Shown here: positions 8,050 to 21,903 of the stretch, in pieces | How the letters are laid out: each line of letters begins with the position of its first letter | How positions within the stretch are numbered: position 1 is the stretch's first letter | Assembly (NCBI RefSeq): GCF_002237575.1 | Contig: NZ_CP022535.1 | Location: 1,054,001-1,118,000 of the forward strand | Length of the DNA: 64,000 nucleotides | Direction of reading: 5' to 3' | DNA from: Spiroplasma corruscae | GTDB taxonomy: Bacteria > Bacillota_I > Bacilli_A > Mycoplasmatales > Mycoplasmataceae | The notes under the pieces: generated by a model | Databases searched by the model: none | The model's input: the letters and a program-made list of their open reading frames with translations, nothing else | Told to the model about the DNA's origin: nothing | Translations under genes and position numbers: made by a program

Positions 8050-8084
8050 AAAAAAACTTTTAAAAAATGTTTTATTTTTTAAAA
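8050..8084 (-). terminator. Strong rho-independent terminator after the surface-protein gene
   Basis: A perfect 12-bp stem (CTTTTAAAAAAT / ATTTTTTAAAAG, 4-base loop) overlaps the stop codon of the upstream gene and is followed on the minus strand by seven T. This is the first terminator met downstream of purE on this strand, so it may end the whole purine transcript. Confidence 0.85.
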
Positions 8085-9769
8085 GCTGTTTTATCTCTGT
8101 TTTTATATCTTTTAACAAAGTAAGGAACTGAAATAGCTAATATTATGATTATAAAAACTATTGATAAAAATGTTATAAATAAGTATATTGCCAATAAAAT
8201 ATTTTTTGTCACTGACTGAGCAACTTCACCAGAATGTTCATTCCATCCAATAATCTTACCTTTATAAAGTACGGAATTATTCATTTTAAAAGAAGTTTCT
8301 GGGTATGATTGAATTAAATAGTTCGCTCCTTCTTTGGTTCTTCCTAAATATGAATCAAGTACTTTCCCGAACTCTTTATTAAAATTAACATAAGGACTTG
8401 GATTACTTTCTTTTCCTATTTTATAATTTGTTGAGTATGCTTCTGCATTATTACTATCAATATAATTTATTGCAAAAATTAAGTAACAATAACCAGCTGA
8501 TTCATAAATTCCATTAAATCTACTTTTAATAAAAGAATAACCTGTATAAGATTCAACATCACTTTCTTGCTCACCACTTAATAATAATTTTTCATCTGGT
8601 GTAAATATCATCCCAATAATAGCATATGAAAAATCATCTATATTATTACTAAGGAATGTAAGTTTATAACATATATTAAAAATATTTAGAATGGTATTTT
8701 TTAAATTTTCTAACCTTTCCTCTGATCATTTATATACTTTCGCTAATTCCTTCATTACAATACTCAAAGTAATATTAGCTCCGGGATTCTTTCTCCTATT
8801 ATGGGTTATATCTGAATAATATTTATCTAATTCATCAAAATTTTTAAACTTTATATTCTGTGATAAGAAAATTTGAAATTTACTTATGGATTCATCTGAT
8901 GCTTTTATATAATTAGAATTATTTCATGTTTTTAATTTTTCATACTTTACTAAACAATCATCCATTTTTCCATTGCAATAATTTGAAATAACTATTTTAT
9001 CAGCAAGACTTTTCATGCTAGTAATCTTATTATTTATCCTTAAATCACCATTACTTAAGGCAAACTTGTATGAGCTAATCAATAAGTTTTGTGCATAAGG
9101 AAGATAACTTGAATCACTATTTGCAATTCCAAAATTCTCACTATCATAAAATAAATCTCTTGAAGTTAATAAATTTTGATTTTCTAAAGAATTAAATGTA
9201 AATGAATATATAAGGCACTTTGAATTAGAATCAAAGTCACGATCAATTATTTCTTTAGTCTTATCAAAACTATCTTGACCTGCTAATTTTATTTTTAAAT
9301 TAGTATATAAATTAGTGAAGAAATAATTTAAAAGTTCTCAAGTTAAGTTTTCTTTAACTGTCTTATAGTTAAGTCATTTGCTAAATGCCTGTGAGAAAAA
9401 ATCTTGGTACGAAGTCATTCCATTTAATGATACCAATATTGTATTTGAAGATAAACTCATCAAATAATATAACTCTTGTTCTGAAGTAAGATTTAAACTT
9501 TTTTTTAAAGTACCTGTATATTCATCAAATGTTGTATGTTTATACAAAAAATATTGTAATGCTTTTCCAGCTCATAAAAAATCATTTGATAAAATAGTTG
9601 TTTTTTTGGAACTTCTATTTTCCTTTAAATTAGATGTTATGGTATCAGGAAAATTATTAACAAAGTTTTTGTTTTCGGAGTTTATTGAGTATGAAGCATT
9701 CAAAAAAGTTGTAAATACTAATGTATTAAATCCAAATAATATTGTAATTTTTTTAAATATATTCTTCAT
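8072..9769 (-). CDS. Uncharacterised exported membrane-anchored protein
   Basis: A 565-residue protein not recognised as any family. It begins MKNIFKKITILFGFN, a basic then hydrophobic signal peptide ending near residue 25, without a lipobox Cys. The C-terminus has one clear membrane helix (roughly residues 515-550) followed by a short basic tail KRYKNRDKTAFKK. The bulk would therefore lie outside the cell, anchored at the C-terminus. It is rich in Asn, Ser, Asp and Tyr. The ATG at 9769 is chosen over 9787 because AAAGAGG lies just before it. It follows purD by 39 bases with no terminator between, and ends at a strong one, so it may be transcribed with the purine operon. Function unknown. Confidence 0.8.
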
Positions 9770-9808
9770 TTTTGCCTCTTTAACCATTTTTATTTTACTT
9801 CATTTTAG

Positions 9809-11071
9809 TTATTTTCCGATATCTCTTCTATAATAAAAACTTCTAAAATCAAGTTTGTCAATACTCTTATATAAATTATCTATACATGTTTTTTTATTTT
9901 CATGACTTTCTAAAATAAAAACTAACCTTCCACCATTACTTTGGAATTCTTTTTTCTCATGATTATATTTTGTACCCATATGGTAAACATTTTCTATATT
10001 ATAAATCAACTTATTAGTAAATGGTACACCTTTTTCAAAGTTTTTTGGGTAACCTTTACTTGCTATTGTTACTCCAATGAAATACTTTTTATGTCATTCT
10101 AAAGTAGGTTCCTCCTTATTTAAAATTTTTAGTATAACCTCAATAATATCGTTTTTCATCGCAGGCATAAGAACTTCTGTTTCTGGGTCACCAAAACGGC
10201 TATTAAATTCAATTACCTTTATTTCATTATTTCTAGTTAATATTAACCCAGCGTATAATACACCTTTATATATTATCCCTTCATTTTTAAGGGCTTTAAT
10301 AGTTTTACTTATAATATTTTTATTACTTATTGATAAAATTTTTTGGTTGATATATTCGACAGGTGTATAACAACCCATACCGCCTGTATTATCTCCTAAA
10401 TCATTATCAAATATTTTTTTATAATCCTTAGCTGGTTGTAGGGAAACATAAACATCTTCGTTAACAAGAGCTAATAAACTAAACTCTCTTCCATCTAAAA
10501 ACTCTTCAATAACTACACCGCATTTTTTATTATTAAAGATATTTTTATCAAATATGTCTTTAATAATTTCTTCTCCTTCACTTTGTGTTTTTACAATAAA
10601 CACTCCCTTACCACTAGCCAAACCATCATTCTTTATTACAATTGGGTATATATTTAAACTCTTAATATAATCAAGAGCATCTTCTTTTTTTCTTGTAGCA
10701 AAATAATCAGCTGTTGGGATGTTATACTTTTTAAACAGATTTTTTGCAAATATTTTTGAAGATTCTATTTTGGAAGCTTTCATTGTAGGTCCAAATATTT
10801 TTAAATTATTTTTTTCAAATAAGTCTACAACTCCATTTGATAGAAACAATTCATCACCAACAATTGTAAGCCCAATATTTTGGGTTTTAGCAAAGGTTAA
10901 GATTTTTTCATTATCTAAGTAATCAAAATCTTCATAAACATTGGCACAATCACTAATTCCATAATTTCCAGGTATTACAAATATATCATTACAAAGCTGA
11001 GACGTTCTACACTTTCTAGCAAGAGCATGCTCTCTTCCACCTTTTCCAAGAATTAATATATTTATCTTCAT
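9809..11071 (-). CDS. purD: Phosphoribosylamine-glycine ligase (GAR synthetase)
   Basis: Second step of purine synthesis: joins glycine to phosphoribosylamine using ATP. The N-terminus MKINILILGKGGREHALARK is the diagnostic PurD start; the ATP-grasp region shows KNDGLASGKGVFI and the C-terminal EFNSRFGDPETEVLMP. The 420-residue length is normal. One TGA (Trp) near the C-terminus would truncate it at residue 325 under the standard code. Last biosynthetic gene of the operon, one base after the purH stop. Confidence 0.97.
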
Positions 11072-11072
11072 A

Positions 11073-12614
11073 CTAATGTTTAAAGTGTCTGATATTAGTA
11101 AATATCATCGCTATTCCTTTCTTATTAGCTAAATCAATTGACTCCTTGTCTTTAATTGAACCACCTGGTTGAATTATTATTTTTACATTATATCTTGATG
11201 CTAGTTCAACAACATCATTAAAAGGCAAGAAAGCATCACTTGATAATATTGAACCATCCGCTTTTTTTCCAGCATGTTCTAAAGCTATTTTAGCTGACCC
11301 TATTCTATTCATCTGACCAGGTCCAATTCCAATGGTTTGATAGTTTTTTGTTAAAGCTATCCCGTTTGATTTAACATGTTTTACTATTATGTATGCAAAT
11401 CATGCTTCCTCTAACTCTAAATCTGATAGTTTATTTTTAGTAACAACTTTTCAATCTTTTATATTATGTTTATATGAATCTTTATTTTGTATTAGAAGAC
11501 CTTGATCCACTGAATGATATTCAAATTTGTTAATTTTTAGATTATCTGTTTTAAAATCAAGTTTTACTAATCTCAGATTTTTCTTTTGGGATAGTAACTC
11601 AAGAGCATCTTCATCGAAATCCTGAGCAATTATTATTTCTAAAAAAATGTCTTTCATAATTTTTGCTACATCTTTATTAATAACTTGATTAGTAGCCACT
11701 ATTCCTCCAAATATTGATTTAGAGTCACTGTCCAAAACCTTTAGTCATAAATCCTTGACATTTCCTTTGATCGCTACTCCACATGGATTTAGATGTTTTA
11801 TACCTACCATACAATTATAATTATTTAAGTCCTTGACTATTCCAATAGCGGCATTAGCATCTAAGATATTATTATATGAAAGTTGTTTGCCATTAAGTAG
11901 TGTACCATTATTTATTGATATTTCCTTATGAAATATATCTGTATACCAATACGCTTTTTGATGTGGATTTTCACCATATCTTAGCTCTTCTTTTTTTAAT
12001 ACAGAAATAGTAAGTACCTCTGGCATATAATTATTATCCAACTTGGTAAGCATATAATTATTTATCAGTGAATCATAACTAGAAGTATGAGCAAATGCTT
12101 TTTGAGATAAAGTTAATTTAAATCTATTATCTACTTGATTAGACTTTAGTTTTTCAATAACAAGCATATAATCATTAATATCACATATAGTTAAAACATC
12201 TTTATAGTTTTTTGCTGCGGCCCTTAATAAACTTACACCACCAATATCAATATTCTCTACAATATCTTCATGTAAACTACTATCATTTTGTATTGTTTTT
12301 AGAAATGGATATAGGTCAATAGCAACTATGTCAATAGATTTTATATTATGTTCCTTAATTTGATTAGAATGAGACTTGTTGCTTCTAATAGATAATATTC
12401 CACCATATATTAGAGGATGTAAAGTTTTTACTCTACCATCTAATATTTCCGGAAAACCAGTTATACTTTCAACCATTACTGCTTCAATCTTGTTTTCTAC
12501 CAAATATTTATAAGTACCTCCAGTGCTAATTATTTTATAATCTAAACTTGTAAGTTCTCTCGCAAATTCGATTAAATTTGTTTTATCAGACACTGATATT
12601 AGCGCATACTTCAT
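11073..12614 (-). CDS. purH: Bifunctional AICAR formyltransferase / IMP cyclohydrolase
   Basis: Catalyses the last two steps to IMP. The 513-residue protein has the N-terminal cyclohydrolase (MGS-like) domain, starting [18 protein letters not shown] with [22 protein letters not shown] and VAIDLYPF, and the transformylase domain with [31 protein letters not shown] and SSDAFLPF. All typical motifs are present and the length is normal. Three TGA-Trp codons interrupt it under the standard code. Its ATG overlaps the purN stop by one base (TAATG), implying translational coupling. Confidence 0.97.
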
Positions 12615-13189
12615 TATTCTTCATCTCCTCTAATTATTTTATTTATAACTTTTCAATAATATTTATGCTCTTGCTTTTGTATTCTAAATTGTAATTTCTC
12701 TGGAGTATCATTCTTATATACCCTAACTTGTTTTTGAAATATTATTTTTCCTGAGTCAACATCTTGGTTAACATGATGGATTGTAAAACCTGATAAATAA
12801 GTACCGTATGACAATGTTTCTTCTATTGCGTTTTTACCTTTAAAACTTGGTAAAAGTGATGGGTGAATATTAAATATTCTATTTCTATATCTTTCAAGTA
12901 AAACTGATGATATCAGCATCATATATCCGGCTAGAAAAATATATTTAATTTTTTCCTCTTCAAGCACTTTTAATATCTCTTCCTCATAAGAAACTTTACT
13001 AGAATAATTTTTCAATATAAAAGTATAATTCTTAATTTTGTTTTGATTTGCAATTTTAATTGCATTTATATTTTCTTTGTTGGCAACTAAAATTATTTTC
13101 CTTACCAACAATTTATTATTTTTATAGGCATCTACTATTGATTGAAAGTTACTACCATTACCAGAAGCGAATATCGCTATATTAATCAT
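12614..13189 (-). CDS. purN: Phosphoribosylglycinamide formyltransferase
   Basis: Formylates GAR with 10-formyl-THF. Starts MINIAIFASGNGSNFQS, with the catalytic IFNIHPSLLPSFKG motif and GFTIHHVNQDVDSGKII. The 191-residue length fits. The ATG at 13189 overlaps the purM stop by 8 bases (ATGATTAA), a typical coupled arrangement, and is preferred over an upstream TTG. Choosing PurN (folate-dependent) rather than PurT means a 10-formyl-THF supply is needed. Confidence 0.96.
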
Positions 13190-14225
13190 TATTAATAACA
13201 ATCCTTTCTTCCTGATAATTTATAATTTCTCCTATTGTAAATGCCTTGTAACTTTTGTAATTATTTATAAGTTTTAGCAACCTGGCTTCATCTTGATCTT
13301 TGACTATAACAACAAAACCTACACCCATGTTAAATACATTAAACATTTCATAGTCATTTATAGAAGAAATTGATTGCATAATATTAAAAATTGGAGGCAC
13401 TTCTATTTTATTTTTGTTTATCCTTGCACATAAATTCTTTGGAATAACTCTAGGAATGTTTTCAATAATACCGCCTCCGGTTATGTTTGCCATTGCAGAT
13501 ACTTTTATTCCACTATTAATTATTTCATTAATTATATCAGCATAAATTTTTGTTGGTTTTAATAATTCTGTTATTAAATCACAATCTAGTTCCTCAAATT
13601 TATGATCAAATTTATAATTATTATCTTTAAAAAATATTTTTCTAACTAAAGAATAGCCATTTGAATGAACCCCTGAAGATTGAATTGCAATTATTTTATC
13701 TTTTACCTTAACATTATTAAAGTCTATTATTTTTTCTTTTTCTACACAACCGGTTATGAATCCAGCTAAATCATAATGATTTTTTATATACATATCTTTC
13801 ATCTCAGCTGTTTCGCCACCAAGTAAAGAACAATCACTTTCTAAACAGCCTTGTACAATACCAATTATTATGTCCTCAATTTTGTCTACATCAATTTTGT
13901 CAATTGCAATGTAGTCGAGAAAGTATAAAGGTTTTGCTCCTAAAGTTAAAATATCATTTACACACATTGCAACTAGATCAATTCCTATTGATTTATGATT
14001 ATTAGCTTCTATTGCTAGTAACAATTTAGTGCCCACACCATCAGTGCCTGAAACTAATATTGGCTTTTTGTAATTCAATTCAGATAAATCATATGAGCAA
14101 CCAAAACTTCCAATGCTACTTATGAACTTTGTATCCAATTTATCACTAACTATTTTTTTTATACGATTCACTACTTCATAACCTTTGTGTATGTCAACTC
14201 CTGATTTTTTATAGTTTTGACTCAT
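13182..14225 (-). CDS. purM: Phosphoribosylformylglycinamidine cyclo-ligase (AIR synthetase)
   Basis: Converts FGAM to AIR with ATP. The 347-residue protein starts MSQNYKKSGVDIHKGYEVV, followed by ILVSGTDGVGTKL, IGIDLVAMCVNDI, LLGGETAEM and ANITGGGIIENIPRV, the standard AIRS/PurM motifs. It begins two bases after the purF stop. No internal TGA. Confidence 0.97.
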   Translation of the reverse strand: MSQNYKKSGVDIHKGYEVVNRIKKIVSDKLDTKFISSIGSFGCSYDLSELNYKKPILVSGTDGVGTKLLLAIEANNHKSIGIDLVAMCVNDILTLGAKPLYFLDYIAIDKIDVDKIEDIIIGIVQGCLESDCSLLGGETAEMKDMYIKNHYDLAGFITGCVEKEKIIDFNNVKVKDKIIAIQSSGVHSNGYSLVRKIFFKDNNYKFDHKFEELDCDLITELLKPTKIYADIINEIINSGIKVSAMANITGGGIIENIPRVIPKNLCARINKNKIEVPPIFNIMQSISSINDYEMFNVFNMGVGFVVIVKDQDEARLLKLINNYKSYKAFTIGEIINYQEERIVINND

Positions 14226-14227
14226 AA

Positions 14228-15607
14228 TTACTCCCCTTTATTTAAATCATAAATATCAGCAGGGTATTCACCTGTAAAAATATCAAAGCATCCTTGATTA
14301 GGAGCAAATAATTTCTTAAGATTATCAATGCTTAGAAAACTTAAACTATCACACCCAATATATTCAATCATTTGATTAATAGTCATATTTGCTGCAATTA
14401 GTTCTTTGTATGTTGAAATATCAATTCCATAATAACTTGGGTACTTAATTGGTGGGGAAGCTACTCTGACGTGAACTTCCTTAGCACCATTATTTTTTAA
14501 TAATTTTACAATGTACTTACTTGTAGTACCCCTTACAATTGAGTCATCAATCAAAATTACTCTCTTATCTTTTACAACATCTTTAATTACAGAAAGTTTA
14601 TTCCTAACACCAATCTCTCTTAGTTCTTTTGTTGGCTGAATAAATGTTCTTCCTGAATATTTATTCTTTATTAATCCAATGTCAAAAGGTAATTTAGATT
14701 GTTTGGAATAACCCAAAGCAGATGAAGTTGAAGAGTCTGGAACCCCAATAACTATATCACCCGGATAATTATTCTCCTGTGCTGCTAATAATTTTCCTGA
14801 TTCAACTCTAAAATTATGTACATTTATATTATTAATATTGCTACTTGGATGAGAAAAATAAATATACTCCATTGAACAAACGTTATTAAAATTATTTTTT
14901 GAAAAATAGAAGCTTTCTAATCCTTTGTTGCTAATTTTAACGATTTCACCCGGATTAACATCTCTAATATAAGTTGCGCCAGTAACATCAAAAGCATAAG
15001 TCTCAGATGCAACAACATAACCATTATTAAATTTACCAATTGAAAGTGGTCTCAAACCATTTCTATCGCGTATGGCATATAACTCATCTTCAAATAAAAG
15101 TAAAAAAGCAAATGCTCCACTTATTACATTTAGTGAACTCTTTATTTTATCAAGTCTTTGAGTCTCTTTACTTTTTGTATAAAGATGTGCCAATATTTCT
15201 GAGTCACTTGTTGCTTGAAATATACTTCCTTCTGATTCCATCTTATCTTTTATGATATGAGCATTTGTTAAGTTACCATTATGGACTAAACCAAACTTAT
15301 CATCTTTTATATTGAAATAAAATGGCTGAACGTTACATTCAATAGAGCCACCGGTCGTTGAATATAAAACATGACCTATTGAGTTTTTTGCTTTTCAATT
15401 TTTAAAGTCCGTACTTTTAAACTTTTCAGAAACTAACCCCATCCCTTTTTTTAATATAAAGTTCTCTAATTTATCATAACCTAATATTCCACAACCCTCT
15501 TGTCCTCTGTGTTGCAAGGCATGAAGACCATAATAGTTTATTAAGGGTGCATTTTCAATGTTAAAGCAACCAAAAACACCACATTTTTCTTTTATTACAT
15601 CCCCCAT
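14228..15607 (-). CDS. purF: Amidophosphoribosyltransferase
   Basis: Committed first step: transfers glutamine amide nitrogen to PRPP. The N-terminal nucleophile glutaminase domain begins after a short propeptide, MGDVIKEK-CGVFG, with HALQHRGQEG and LVHNGNLTNA; the PRTase domain has VILIDDSIVRGTT. Length 459. In the Bacillus-type enzyme the C-terminus ends with a CxxC pair before FTG that binds a 4Fe-4S cluster; here the segment reads GCFDIFTG, so the second Cys appears to be Ile. The cluster may therefore be lost; this rests on my recollection of the Bacillus sequence. One TGA-Trp near residue 71 splits it under the standard code. Confidence 0.97.
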
Positions 15608-15608
15608 A

Positions 15609-16313
15609 TTAAATACTTATGCTTTCTAATTTATCTAATATTATTTTATATATGTAAGTAATATCATCTAAATCTTCTCTAAAACAGTCCTTATCTAGTT
15701 TTCTTTTATTTTCATCTCAAAACCTGCAAGTATCAGGGCTTATTTCATCGCCTAAACAAATATTATTCTCATCATCAATACCCATCTCAATTTTAAAGTC
15801 AACAACTGTTATGCTTACTTTTTTAAATAATGTGCATAGTAATTGATTAATTTCTAATGCTACTTTTTTAATTTCTGCTAACTGTGTTGAATTGGTTAAA
15901 CCAAGAGTAACACAGTGGTCATCATTTATTAAAGGATCTCCATAGTCATCATTTTTATAACATATTTCAAATATTGGTTTATTGAAAATAGTTCCTTCTT
16001 TAATTCCAATTTTCTTTGTAATACTTCCTGAAGCTATATTTCTTATTATTATTTCAATATCAAACATTTTTAACTTTTTTACCAAAATATTTTGTTCATC
16101 TAAAACTCTTAGCAGATGGGTTTTTATACCATTCTTTTCTAAATAATGAAATATGATATTTGAAATTTTTGCGGTAAGTATGCCCTTAGAATCGTAGCTT
16201 GCTTTTTTTAAACTATTAAAAGCTGTAACATCATTTTTAAAATACATTTTTAACTCATTACTTTTTTCTGTTGCATAACATATTTTTGATTTACCTTCGT
16301 ATAATTTATCCAT
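15609..16313 (-). CDS. purC: SAICAR synthetase
   Basis: Joins aspartate to CAIR with ATP. Starts MDKLYEGKSKICYATEKSNEL, with the family motifs IIRNIASGS and [29 protein letters not shown]. Length 234 is typical. The final Trp-Asp segment is lost if TGA is read as stop. Two bases separate it from purL and one from purF. Confidence 0.97.
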
Positions 16314-16315
16314 AA

Positions 16316-19300
16316 TTATTTTTCCCTTTCTTTATTTCTTAAAAAATATTTAACAGCACTCATAAATATATCCTGCTTTTTATTTCCATAGATATTTTTA
16401 CAAATATCTTTACCGTATCTTTCACTATGTCCCATTTTACCGAGTACTAATCCACATTTTGATATAATACCTTCTATATTGTAATAAGACCCATTTGGGT
16501 TATTTGACTCATCAATATATTCAAAAGCTACCTGATTATTAGAAATAAGTTTTTTATATTCTTTATGATTAATAACAAATCTTCCTTCTCCATGTGAAAT
16601 GGGAATGTTTATTACATCTCCTATTGTTAATTCTTGTGTTCAAGGTGAGCTATTATTTGTAACTTTGCATTTTACATATTTAGATATGTGTCTATTTATA
16701 TTGTTTCTTATTAAAGATGGATCATCTTCACTTAATTCTTTTGCTTCGCTGTGCATCAATATTCCAGATTTAAGTAAAGCTTGAAAACCATTACAAATAC
16801 CAAGTATAAGTTTCTTCTCTTCTAAGAAATCTTTTATTGCATCTTTTACATTTTTATTTTTTAGTACATTTGCAATGTACTTTCCGCTACCATCTGGTTC
16901 ATCTCCAGAACTAAATCCACCAGGTATAACTAAGATATGTGCACTCTTAATTTTTTTAACAAGTTCTTCAATTGAATAACATATACTTTCAGTATTTAGA
17001 TTATTAAATATAAATTCTTCATAAATTATATTTTCTTCTTTAAAAGCATTTTTAATATCATATTCACAATTAGTTCCAGGAAAAATTAGAGAAATAACTT
17101 TTACCTCCTTAACTAAATATGGGAAGTAAACTTTATTTTTATAAGTATTATCTTTTACTTCTGGTAGTGGGTATGACTCGTCTCCTTCATAATATATTTT
17201 TTTTATTGGACCTATATAATTCTCAAACGACTTTTTTTTATCAATATTAGTTTCATTAATTATAAAACCATTAGAAACTTCACCTAATAATACTATGTTA
17301 TTATCATTTATCTCTTCTTTTGACTCAAATAATATTGAGCCATAAAGGGGTTTAAAAATATTTATGTTAGTATTAATATTAAAACCTAGGTCATTTCCAA
17401 ATGCCATTTTAGCTAGTGCTTCAGCAATACCTCCTTGCTGAATTGCAAATGCAGACTCTACTTTTTCATATTTAACTAATTTATTAAATGAAATAAATAT
17501 TTTTTTTAGTTGTTTAAAGTCTGGGAAGTTATTATCCATTTTATGAATATATAAATAAATTTTATTACCTATCTTTTTAAAATCAGTTGATACAATTTTA
17601 TTTGTATATCCTGTTGTTAATGCAAAACTTACTAAAGTAGGTGGAACATTAAGATTTTGGTATGTTCCACTCATACTATCTTTACCACCAATTGCAGGCA
17701 CACCTAGTTCTTTTTGTACAACTAGTGCACCAAGTACTGCTAAAAGAGGTTTACCTCATTTATAGTTATCATCTTCTAGTTTTTCAAAATACTCTTGTAA
17801 AGTTAGTTTAATATTTTTGTACAATCCTCCACATGCAATAATTTTTGTTATACTCTCAACTATACTTAACATAGAACCGACAAATATATTCTTCTCACAA
17901 ATATAAGGATTAAATCCGTAACCCATTATAGTACATACATTATTATTTATTTTTAAGGGAATTTTATTACAACTAACTTGTACTTCTGATAGCTGGTGTT
18001 CTCCACCATGCGGCGCTAATACTGTTGTAGTCCCTATTGTTGAGTCAAACATTTCAATCATTGGTTTTTGCGACATCACATTTAAATTTTTCAAATTTGA
18101 AATAAAATTATGCTCTAGGTTTTCAAAACTATTATTATTTTGTGAGTCTCAATCTTCTAAGATGCTTTTAGATATTTTTATGCTGATGTGATTTCTTACT
18201 CCACCAGTATCAATAAAATCTCTATCAATATCAACAACTTTTTTCTTTTTATTATAAACAATAAATTTTTTTTCTTTTATAACTTCTCCAATTTTAACTG
18301 CCAGTAGATTATTCCTGAAGGCTTTTTCAATAAAAAAACTTGTATTCCTATTACTTAAAACAACAACCATTCGCTCCTGAGATTCTGATATTAATATTTC
18401 CTTACTAGTTAGACCAGAATTTTTTAGAGGTACTCTATCAAGATAAATTTTTATTCCTTCAGACAACTCTCCAACTCCTACTCCTATTCCTCCAGCTCCT
18501 AAATCATTTGCTTTTTTTATTATTTTTGAAACTGCTGGATCTGTAAAAAATTTTTGAAGTTTCCTTTCTTCAACAGGATTTCCTTTTTGGACTTCACTAT
18601 AAGAATTCTTTTGTGAACTTTCGTTTTGTTTTTTTGAAGATCCCGTTGCTCCTCCAATACCATCTTTACCAGTCAACCCTCCAACTAATACTATTACATC
18701 TCCAGGCTGTGGTTTTTTTCTAACAAGATTTTTGATTTTGCTAACTCCAACAACTGCACCTATTTCTAACCTTTTAGCTTTATAACCTTCATGATATATT
18801 TCTTTCACTAATGTTGTTGGTATTCCAATCTGATTACCATAACTGGAGAAACCATCTGCTGCTATACGTGATATTTTTGATTGAGGAAGTTTGTTTGGTA
18901 ATGTGTTCTCTATATCTTCTAATATATTTCCAGAACCTGTTACTCTTATTCCTTGGTAAACATAAGATCTTCCAGATAATGGGTCTCTTATTGCACCACC
19001 AAGACAAGTGGCAGCTCCTCCAAATGGTTCGATTTCTGTTGGATGATTGTGTGTTTCATTTTTAAATTGTATTACACACTTATTTTTTTTACCTAAATCA
19101 ACATAAATAGAGGCAGCATTAATTTCATCTGATATCTCTAAATCTTCAACATTATTATTTTGAATTAAATGTTTTATGTAACTTGTTGCAATACTCATTA
19201 ATGAAAATTCTGATCTCGTTTTTATAGAATTATAATAGTCAATTGCCTTAACCACTTTATCTTTATAAAAATTATTTACATCGGTATCAAAAGAGATATT

Positions 19301-19981
19301 ATCTATTATTGTTTCAAATGTCTTATGTCGACAATGATCACTTCAATATGTATCAAGTAAATATAACTCAGTATCTGTTAGACTTCTATTTACAACATTG
19401 TTATAGTGATTAACTAAAAATAGGAAGTCTCTAAGATTCATAGCTAGATTTAGTTCAGAGTATAACTTGGATAAATTTTTTTGATCTAGATTTATGTCAA
19501 TTGTTCTTTCTTCTTGACTTTGCACTTCTTCTAATCAATTATTATTATTTAAATTAAATTCATATGACTCAACAGGGTTAATTAATAACTTTTTAATTTT
19601 ATAAATAGTTTCATCATTTAGGGAATTATTAAATACATAAAGTTTAAATGTTTTTATTTTGATCTTTTTAAATAGTAAAACATTTGCACATTCAGATGCA
19701 CTTTCTTCTCTTGGATTAAATTGACTATCAAAAGTTTTGACTACAAGGTGCTTTTTGTTAACTAAGTTCAATTCTAAATATGTATTATCAATGTTTGGTT
19801 CAGATAATATATTGTTAATAATTTCTTTTAGTTCAACTTCATTCACATCGTATATATCATATACATTAAAAACTTTACAAGTAATATCATTAATTTTTAA
19901 ACTTTGTTTTAACTCCTGAGTTAAGTTCTTTGATTCAGTATCATAATCTTCTTTTTTACATATAAAAACTCTATTAAACAT
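16316..19981 (-). CDS. purL: Phosphoribosylformylglycinamidine synthase, large fused form
   Basis: Converts FGAR plus glutamine to FGAM. At 1221 residues this is the large single-chain enzyme: a PurS-like N-terminus (MFNRVFICKKEDYD), the linker with YWSDHCRHKTF, two AIRS-like synthetase halves (FKNETHNHPTEIEPFGGAATC; GGLTGKDGIGGATGSS; AIGGKDSMSGT), and a C-terminal glutaminase domain with FPGTNCEYD, LGICNGFQ holding the nucleophile Cys, and ISHGEGRF. It thus replaces the separate PurS, PurQ and PurL of Bacillus. The ATG at 19981 has a strong GGAGGAAG site and overlaps the purK stop by 8 bases. Five or more TGA-Trp codons fragment it under the standard code. Confidence 0.97.
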
Positions 19982-21053
19982 TTTCTTCCTCCAAAAATTT
20001 TTTGATCTCATTGAATTTTTTTATCAGATTTTTTTTATTATTATCCGATATATTTATATGTCCCATTTTTCTTTTTTGGAGTGGTTCCTTTTTTTTATAA
20101 TCATATCTATATACGTTATTTAATATAAAACTCGTATTTATTTCATTACCTAATAAGTTATACATGATTGTCTTTTTTAATAATTTTGGTTTAATTATTT
20201 TTCTACTTGTTATAGCAAGTATATGGTTTCTGAACTGACTTACATTACAACCATCTAATGAGTAATGACCTGTGTTGTGAACCCTGGGTGCCATCTCATT
20301 AAAATATAGTTCTTTATTTTTTACAAAAAACTCAAATGCTACGGTGCCAATTATATTTTCTTTTATTAGAATTTTTTTTATTATTTTTTTTAATTTACTA
20401 TTTATTAAGTTTTTTTTAGCTAGTACTAATGATTTTTTTAATATACCATTCTCATGATAATTTATTGGAGTTGGAAAAAAGTATATTTGTTTTAGTGTAC
20501 TTCTTGTAACTAACACACTAGTTTCATAATCGAAATTGAAAAACTCTTCAAGTAAATAAGAAACGTTATATTTAATTTTTAAATAATCTTCTTTGGATTT
20601 TATTATATATTGTCCCTTACCATCATAGCCACCTGAGTTAACTTTTAGTATGAATGGGTAGTCTATTTTTTTATAAAATATAAGATCCTTTATTTGATCT
20701 TGGGAATTGATTGGATAAAATAATAATGTTTTAAGTCCATAATCTTTAGCAAAAACCTTCTCCTTAAATCTATTTTTTGAAACCTTTAAAAAATCTATTC
20801 CAGGTTTTATTTTAGATTTAAATTCATTAAGAACGCCATCATCAATATTCTCAAACTCATATGTTATAACATCTACTAAACTTGACAGCTTTCTTAATGC
20901 TTCCTTGTCATTATAATCATAATTTAATATAACTACACCAAGGTCCGAGCAACTATTATCTATTTTTGGCTCTAAAACAATAAATTCTGTGTCTGGTGAA
21001 GAAAGTATTAACATCCTTGCTAGTTGACCACCACCAATTATTCCCACTCTCAT
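19974..21053 (-). CDS. purK: 5-(carboxyamino)imidazole ribonucleotide synthase
   Basis: ATP- and bicarbonate-dependent conversion of AIR to N5-CAIR. Starts MRVGIIGGGQLARMLILSSP, with ATP-grasp elements YPFILKVNSGGYDGKGQY and the C-terminal EMAPRVHNTGHYSLDGC typical of PurK. Length 359. The ATG at 21053 lies one base after the purE stop and is preferred to an upstream in-frame ATG within purE. Confidence 0.96.
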   Translation of the reverse strand: MRVGIIGGGQLARMLILSSPDTEFIVLEPKIDNSCSDLGVVILNYDYNDKEALRKLSSLVDVITYEFENIDDGVLNEFKSKIKPGIDFLKVSKNRFKEKVFAKDYGLKTLLFYPINSQDQIKDLIFYKKIDYPFILKVNSGGYDGKGQYIIKSKEDYLKIKYNVSYLLEEFFNFDYETSVLVTRSTLKQIYFFPTPINYHENGILKKSLVLAKKNLINSKLKKIIKKILIKENIIGTVAFEFFVKNKELYFNEMAPRVHNTGHYSLDGCNVSQFRNHILAITSRKIIKPKLLKKTIMYNLLGNEINTSFILNNVYRYDYKKKEPLQKRKMGHINISDNNKKNLIKKFNEIKKFLEEENV

Positions 21054-21054
21054 A

Positions 21055-21534
21055 CTATATAACCTCAATATCTAATACTTTTTGAGTTTGCTCATTTATA
21101 TATTTATTCAAGTTTTTAGATATTTTATCGTTATATAAAGATAAAATTCGGGCCGCATATAGTGCTGCATTTTTAGCCCCGCTTTCTCCAATTGCCATTG
21201 TAGCAACAGGAACGCCACCGGGCATCTGTACAATAGATAATAATGAATCAATTCCATTTAATGAACTGGATTTTACAGGTATACCTATAACAGGTAAACA
21301 TGTTAAACTTGCGACCATACCAGGTAAATGTGCGCTTCCACCAGCAGCGGCAATAACTAAATCAAACTTATCAGCAGCTGTCTTTGCGTAATTAAAAAGT
21401 AAATCAGGTGTTCTATGGGCTGAAACAACTTTTATATCAAAAGTAATTTCTAGCAAGTTTAGTATTTCAATACATGGTTCAAGTGTTTTTTTATCACTTA
21501 TAGAACCCATTATTATACTTACTTTATTCTTCAT
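21055..21534 (-). CDS. purE: N5-CAIR mutase
   Basis: Class I PurE converting N5-CAIR to CAIR. The 159-residue protein has the signature MGSISDKKT, the catalytic SAHRTPDLLF loop and AAAGGSAHLPGMVASLT. Presence of PurK beside it fits class I. First gene of the purine operon, 17 bases after the riboswitch terminator, with an AAAGG ribosome binding site. Confidence 0.97.
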   Translation of the reverse strand: MKNKVSIIMGSISDKKTLEPCIEILNLLEITFDIKVVSAHRTPDLLFNYAKTAADKFDLVIAAAGGSAHLPGMVASLTCLPVIGIPVKSSSLNGIDSLLSIVQMPGGVPVATMAIGESGAKNAALYAARILSLYNDKISKNLNKYINEQTQKVLDIEVI

Positions 21535-21550
21535 TTGTACCTTTCTAAAT

Positions 21551-21579
21551 AAAAAAAGACCCCTATATAAAAGGAGTCT
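21551..21579 (-). terminator. Riboswitch-controlled intrinsic terminator before purE
   Basis: Stem AGACTCC / GGGGTCT with a 9-base loop followed on the minus strand by seven T. Its 5' arm and loop (21566-21578) are complementary at 12 of 13 positions to the 3' strand of the aptamer P1 plus adjoining bases (21604-21616), so terminator and aptamer-disrupting antiterminator are mutually exclusive. Ligand binding should favour termination. Confidence 0.85.
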
Positions 21580-21608
21580 ACAACAAAAAAGGCACTGCTA
21601 TATGACTC

Positions 21609-21676
21609 ATTTTATAGTAAAATAATTTTCGGTTATTTGTAGAAACGTCCGTCCATATTACGAACATATATAAAAT
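21609..21676 (-). ncRNA. Purine riboswitch aptamer (guanine type)
   Basis: All elements of the purine aptamer can be laid out: P1 ATTTTATA / TATAAAAT (8 bp); P2 GTTCGT / ACGGAC; loop L2 AATATGG; junction GTTTCTAC; P3 AAATAA / TTATTT; loop L3 CCGAAAA; and J3/1 containing ACTATA. The GG of L2 and CC of L3 needed for loop-loop contact are kept. The specificity base (position 74 in xpt numbering) is C, predicting guanine/hypoxanthine rather than adenine. The junction lacks the changes reported for the Mesoplasma 2'-deoxyguanosine variants. It precedes purE, as expected for feedback control of purine synthesis. Confidence 0.9.
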
Positions 21677-21690
21677 GATATTACAAAATT

Positions 21691-21696
21691 ATTATA
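21691..21696 (-). promoter_or_regulatory. -10 element of the purine operon
   Basis: TATAAT (context TGTTATAAT) on the minus strand, about 15 bases before the aptamer. Transcription from here would give a leader of about 150 bases holding aptamer and terminator. Confidence 0.55.
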
Positions 21697-21726
21697 ACAT
21701 AACAAAAATTTGAGATTCAGCATAAA

Positions 21727-21754
21727 AAAAATATAAGATTAATCTTATATTTTT
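21727..21754 (-). terminator. Rho-independent terminator of the ecf-truA unit
   Basis: A perfect 28-base palindrome centred at 21740/21741 (effective loop TTAA) followed on the minus strand by a T run. It lies about 150 bases past the truA stop and insulates the purine operon from upstream transcription. Bases 21755-21903 hold nothing else I can identify. Confidence 0.75.
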
Positions 21755-21903
21755 AAGCTAGTTTTAATTAAAAGATATTTATATATTTTTCCTTATAAAC
21801 ATCCAAAAAAATAGTAAAATATCCATTAGTTATGAGTGTACTTTTACTAGCATATAAATATAATATATCAAAAAAATATAAAAATATTTTTATTATATAC
21901 AAA

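Follow-up and report, generated by a model that had tools for sequence, protein, structure and literature searches.

A candidate guanine riboswitch as the predicted transcriptional OFF switch of a de novo purine operon in a probable Spiroplasma

How might a wall-less bacterium with a reduced genome regulate a de novo purine operon, and what would its switch sense? We examined this question in a 64,000-nucleotide stretch of DNA (hereafter the window), where a preliminary description had read positions 21551-21676 as a guanine riboswitch that turns the operon off; the strand, which it did not give, is minus. The element is real: a family match, its helices and core residues, an antiterminator, and a terminator are all present. 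The covariance search proposed there as a check matched Rfam RF00167 at 21693-21595 on the minus strand with 64 bits, the cut-off being 37 (cmscan; E 7.8e-9 in 64 kb), and this was the sole match in the window when all of Rfam 15 was scanned at curated thresholds. A permissive scan of 21400-21900 found no credible family besides RF00167, and the plus strand folded no better than shuffled sequences (z -0.69). The element lies where it had been placed but runs slightly past 21676, as P1 starts at 21678 and a -10 box occupies 21696-21691. Judging from sequence, we consider it very probable (about 0.92) that this is a class-I guanine riboswitch serving as the transcriptional OFF switch of the de novo purine operon purEKLCFMNHD—the reading first proposed, now supported by the covariance match, the core residues, the conserved antiterminator and terminator, and the operon downstream. 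The parts of the aptamer are as follows, with residue numbers in xpt aptamer numbering from our own alignment through the Rfam consensus.

21607..21678, minus strand: aptamer, P1 to P1' (RF00167, 64 bits, helix coordinates)
21678-21669/21616-21607, minus strand: P1 helix, 10 bp (fold)
between P1 and P2, minus strand: J1/2, UAU
21647..21665, minus strand: P2-L2 hairpin, P2 21665-21660/21652-21647, loop AAUAUGG (cmscan and fold)
21639..21646, minus strand: J2/3, GUUUCUAC, with U47 at 21645 and U51 at 21641 (cmscan alignment, xpt numbering)
21620..21638, minus strand: P3-L3 hairpin, P3 21638-21633/21625-21620, loop CCGAAAA (cmscan and fold)
21617..21619, minus strand: J3/1, UAC, with the guanine-specifying C74 at 21617 (cmscan alignment)

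The cmscan alignment places U22 (21668), U47 (21645), U51 (21641), and C74 (21617) as a complete guanine-class core, and the C reported at the specificity position is thus confirmed as C74. Residue C74 points to guanine over adenine as the ligand. Both the GG of L2 and the CC of L3, with which it would be expected to pair, are present. In an alignment of five orthologous leaders, 94.5% of aptamer cells are paired, and two P2 pairs have changed on both sides between orthologues (U-A/C-G and A-U/U-A). P1 is very AU-rich (nine A-U pairs and one C-G) and may be weak in vivo, which counts against the favored explanation. So do two departures from consensus, U24 in the window and U rather than A at position 73 in the four orthologues; each is likewise seen in certain further members of the class. 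L3 does read CCGAAAA rather than CCGUAAA, as noted earlier; we rejected it as a special feature, as orthologues carry CCGAAAA, CCGUAAA, or CCUUAAA at the same operon, and the difference therefore looks like neutral, ordinary variation.

How would binding be coupled to transcription? Two mutually exclusive structures follow the aptamer.

21566..21616, minus strand: antiterminator hairpin, 21616-21595 with 21586-21566, of 7+5+8 pairs with one U.C mismatch and one bulged A (fold)
21557..21579, minus strand: intrinsic terminator stem-loop, followed by a U run at 21551-21556 (terminator scan)

The antiterminator shares the P1 3' strand and the 5' strand of the terminator. The complementarity first reported between the 3' side of P1 and the terminator is exact: TATAAAATGAGTC (21616-21604) pairs with GACTCCTTTTATA (21578-21566) at 12 of 13 positions, and when the downstream leader was dinucleotide-shuffled 20,000 times, only 4 shuffles reached this value. 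The proposed competition with both P1 and the terminator stands as well, whereas the length needs revision, since past the bulged A eight further pairs join UAUAGCAG (21602-21595) to UUGUUGUA (21586-21579), giving 20 pairs rather than 12. Across the five congeneric species 97.9% of antiterminator cells are paired, a figure that falls to 40-57% once the partner strand is shifted by 1-3 columns; the conservation could stem in part from the close relationship of the five sequences. All changes in the antiterminator are one-sided (G-U) in this five-sequence alignment, which contains no two-sided covariation; support for the hairpin therefore rests on conservation, shuffles, and energies. Each of the five orthologous leaders has a terminator hairpin, with energies from -9.4 to -11.6 kcal/mol, and shuffled sequences average 0.2 terminator-type sites (stem plus T run).

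By computed energy, the antiterminator state is favored by 3-7 kcal/mol at 119-125 nt, with the terminator still incomplete; at 128-131 nt the balance passes briefly to aptamer plus terminator, by 1.3 kcal/mol, and at 143 nt the antiterminator leads again, by 3.3 kcal/mol. These energies fit an OFF attenuator, in which a ligand-sized stabilization of P1 could tip the balance to termination; on the computed values, ligand-free RNA should read through and RNA with a ligand-stabilized P1 should terminate. RNA polymerase would make the aptamer first. Bound guanine (or hypoxanthine) would lock P1, so that the antiterminator could not take the P1 3' strand; the terminator stem would then form and transcription would stop before purE. 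With no ligand, the 3' strand of P1, together with the nucleotides that follow, would join the downstream strand as the 20-pair antiterminator, which would hold the 5' half of the terminator and allow the operon to be transcribed. We infer the ligand, its binding, termination, and the direction of control from sequence, family membership, conservation, and predicted energies.

Which genes would this switch control? Directly downstream lie nine unbroken frames (genetic code 4), in the order purE-K-L-C-F-M-N-H-D, together with the following signals.

21691..21696, minus strand: -10 box TATAAT of the putative pur promoter (sequence; invariant in the five orthologous leaders)
21540..21546, minus strand: Shine-Dalgarno-like AGAAAGG, 5 nt before the purE ATG at 21534 (sequence)
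21055..21534, minus strand: purE (TIGR01162, 190.5 bits against a cut-off of 149.6)
19974..21068, minus strand: purK (NF004675/TIGR01161, E 1e-94 to 1e-81, under the strict equivalog cut-offs)
16316..20011, minus strand: purL, single-chain with a glutaminase domain, five in-frame TGA (TIGR01857, 1346 bits)
15609..16313, minus strand: purC (TIGR00081)
14228..15607, minus strand: purF (TIGR01134)
13182..14225, minus strand: purM (TIGR00878)
12614..13201, minus strand: purN (TIGR00639)
11073..12614, minus strand: purH (NF002049/TIGR00355)
9809..11071, minus strand: purD (TIGR00877)

The transcript presumably starts at about 21684; a consensus scan of the pur promoter found no good -35 box. The other four leaders carry GAAAGG, similar to the AGAAAGG of the window. 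The family assignment of purK is clear despite a score under the strict NCBIfam cut-offs. With purB located elsewhere in the same genome, all steps to IMP are therefore encoded. A 571-aa frame directly after purD (8072-9787, minus strand) has no match in Pfam or NCBIfam.

Could the aptamer bind something other than guanine? We rejected an adenine riboswitch, which needs U74 where this element has C at 21617. The xanthine-II and guanine-II variants are defined by an insertion in J2-3 (plus U51G for xanthine-II) (PMC9295807), and they too were rejected, as J2/3 is GUUUCUAC, without insertion. A preference for 2'-deoxyguanosine, as in the Mesoplasma florum variants from the same broader bacterial group, would suit a host related to Mesoplasma in whose relatives, and in its own genome, other purine riboswitches carry Mesoplasma-like L2/L3 loops. 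The 2'-dG-I and 2'-dG-II classes, however, need C at the position equivalent to 51 (PMC8872408), and the element keeps U there (21641), on which core residue we rejected this reading; its L2/L3 loops are also of the common guanine type rather than the Mesoplasma type, and the controlled genes serve purine synthesis, not ribonucleotide reduction by ribonucleotide reductase. We regard 2'-deoxyguanosine as an extremely unlikely ligand.

Nor does the direction or level of control seem likely to differ from transcriptional OFF switching. Purine riboswitches that act as ON switches or on translation do exist, and here the terminator has the Shine-Dalgarno AGAAAGG close by; control of translation, or ON switching, is nonetheless highly improbable, because in all five species an antiterminator that shares the P1 3' strand excludes a clear intrinsic terminator, and the window leader folds without aptamer-dependent pairing that hides the Shine-Dalgarno. 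Least probable of all is a decayed relic that matches the family and no longer switches. Short AU-rich helices in a reduced-genome host would fit such decay, yet aptamer, antiterminator, and terminator are kept in five species whose PurL is only 60-63% identical to that of the window, the flanks upstream of the promoter diverge while the switch parts are kept, and every operon frame is open under code 4. A guanine-responsive transcriptional OFF switch thus remains our preferred reading.

How widespread is this arrangement? In a genus sample of 20 members, including the window genome (G000), purE occurs in five (G000, G007, G011, G012, and G016); the canonical riboswitch is found in 5/5 genomes with purE and 0/15 without it, the remaining members having only Mesoplasma-like purine riboswitches or none. 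The operon adjoins truA in G000, G011, and G016. In G007 and G012 truA lies about 83 kb and 56 kb away, respectively, and the riboswitch is still directly before purE, which ties it to purE and not to the neighborhood. In other genomes of the class (G089, G071, G165, G083, and G147), purE is likewise immediately preceded by a same-strand RF00167 match and followed at short distance by a single-chain purL; shared by several class genomes, the arrangement is therefore common. Pairs of RF00167 matches about 1.6 kb apart precede purE in several class members, at G071:C1:259980 and 261610, at G147:C2:402012 and 403628, at G083:C4:155059 and 156678, and at G089:C24:32896 and 34520.

Further purine riboswitches turned up in these searches. 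The window genome has a second one (L002/L053, G000:C1:916786-916691, minus strand), which scores 46.8 bits and combines U51/C74 with L2/L3 loops like those of Mesoplasma; the next sizeable frame downstream of it codes for a solute-binding lipoprotein (SBP_bac_8). In G007, an element of similar make (L060) precedes a transporter of the Xan_ur_permease family. Ten riboswitches from other genera of the family (L007, L010, L011, L013, L014, L018, L019, L035, L036, and L038) have Mesoplasma-like loops and U74 (GATTATAAGT and similar), that is, they are adenine-type. Five elements in genus members without purE (L023, L028, L030, L031, and L032) are altered on the 3' side of P1 (CTAAAGGC or the like) and lack an obvious standard J3/1; they are possibly degenerate or variant switches.

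Where did the operon come from? The window genome is 1.2 Mb in two contigs; many genes contain in-frame TGA, and its relatives are mostly small (0.4-2.1 Mb), which fits a Mollicute, probably Spiroplasma. Among the Mollicutes covered by a 2013 survey, none was found to have purine-biosynthesis genes (PMC3749518), and our text searches, with most subscription journals outside their coverage, found no paper on a Spiroplasma purine operon or its riboswitch. A PurE search of named genomes returned mostly streptococci (57-61% identity), which first suggested horizontal transfer; a tree of the longer PurL shows no close donor. In that tree the five genus members group together as a separate clade (support 100/100), and this clade and the Mollicute G039 fall on one side of a branch supported at 87/95, with long branches and biased composition. 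G039, from the same order, is a 0.65-Mb genome that likewise has in-frame TGA; purE and single-chain purL lie close together in it, with purH nearby (L246, G039:C1:262000-272000), and no RF00167 match was found in it. The PurL tree is compatible with retention and reacquisition alike. We tentatively suggest, at somewhat less than even odds, that riboswitch and whole operon are a module inherited vertically from a Bacilli-like ancestor of Mollicutes; nearly all Mollicutes would have lost it, the exceptions being a handful of Spiroplasma-like species and, with no riboswitch detected there, one further lineage of the order.

The riboswitch is of an ordinary kind, whereas complete purine operons are rare among these reduced bacteria; that a Mollicute has the operon at all is less usual than the riboswitch itself. 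A well-supported guanine riboswitch is thereby added to a group known in the field mainly for 2'-deoxyguanosine variants. The complete pathway to IMP, and probably guanine feedback with it, persists or was regained in some Mollicutes, which bears on the extent of genome reduction in this group and predicts that species with the operon may grow without supplied purines.

How does the element compare with known systems? The purine riboswitch of Bacillus subtilis acts as an OFF switch by terminator and antiterminator and is placed before purE, and the layout predicted here is alike in both respects. With the RF00167 guanine class (B. subtilis xpt and purE type), the window element shares the three-way junction, the GG of L2, the CC of L3, and U22/U47/U51/C74; it differs from the B. 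subtilis type in the very high AU content of its stems, L3 CCGAAAA, U24, an antiterminator extending 8 pairs beyond a 12-pair core, and a host that reads TGA as Trp. The riboswitch-purE-(purK)-purL loci of the class have the same layout in different host families, and some of them carry two riboswitch matches before purE (e.g., G071, G147, and G083), whereas the window has one. The 2'-dG-I riboswitch of Mesoplasma florum belongs to the same fold family and comes from a related host, but it carries C in place of U51 and its L2/L3 loops differ (PMC8872408); the window element shares neither feature.
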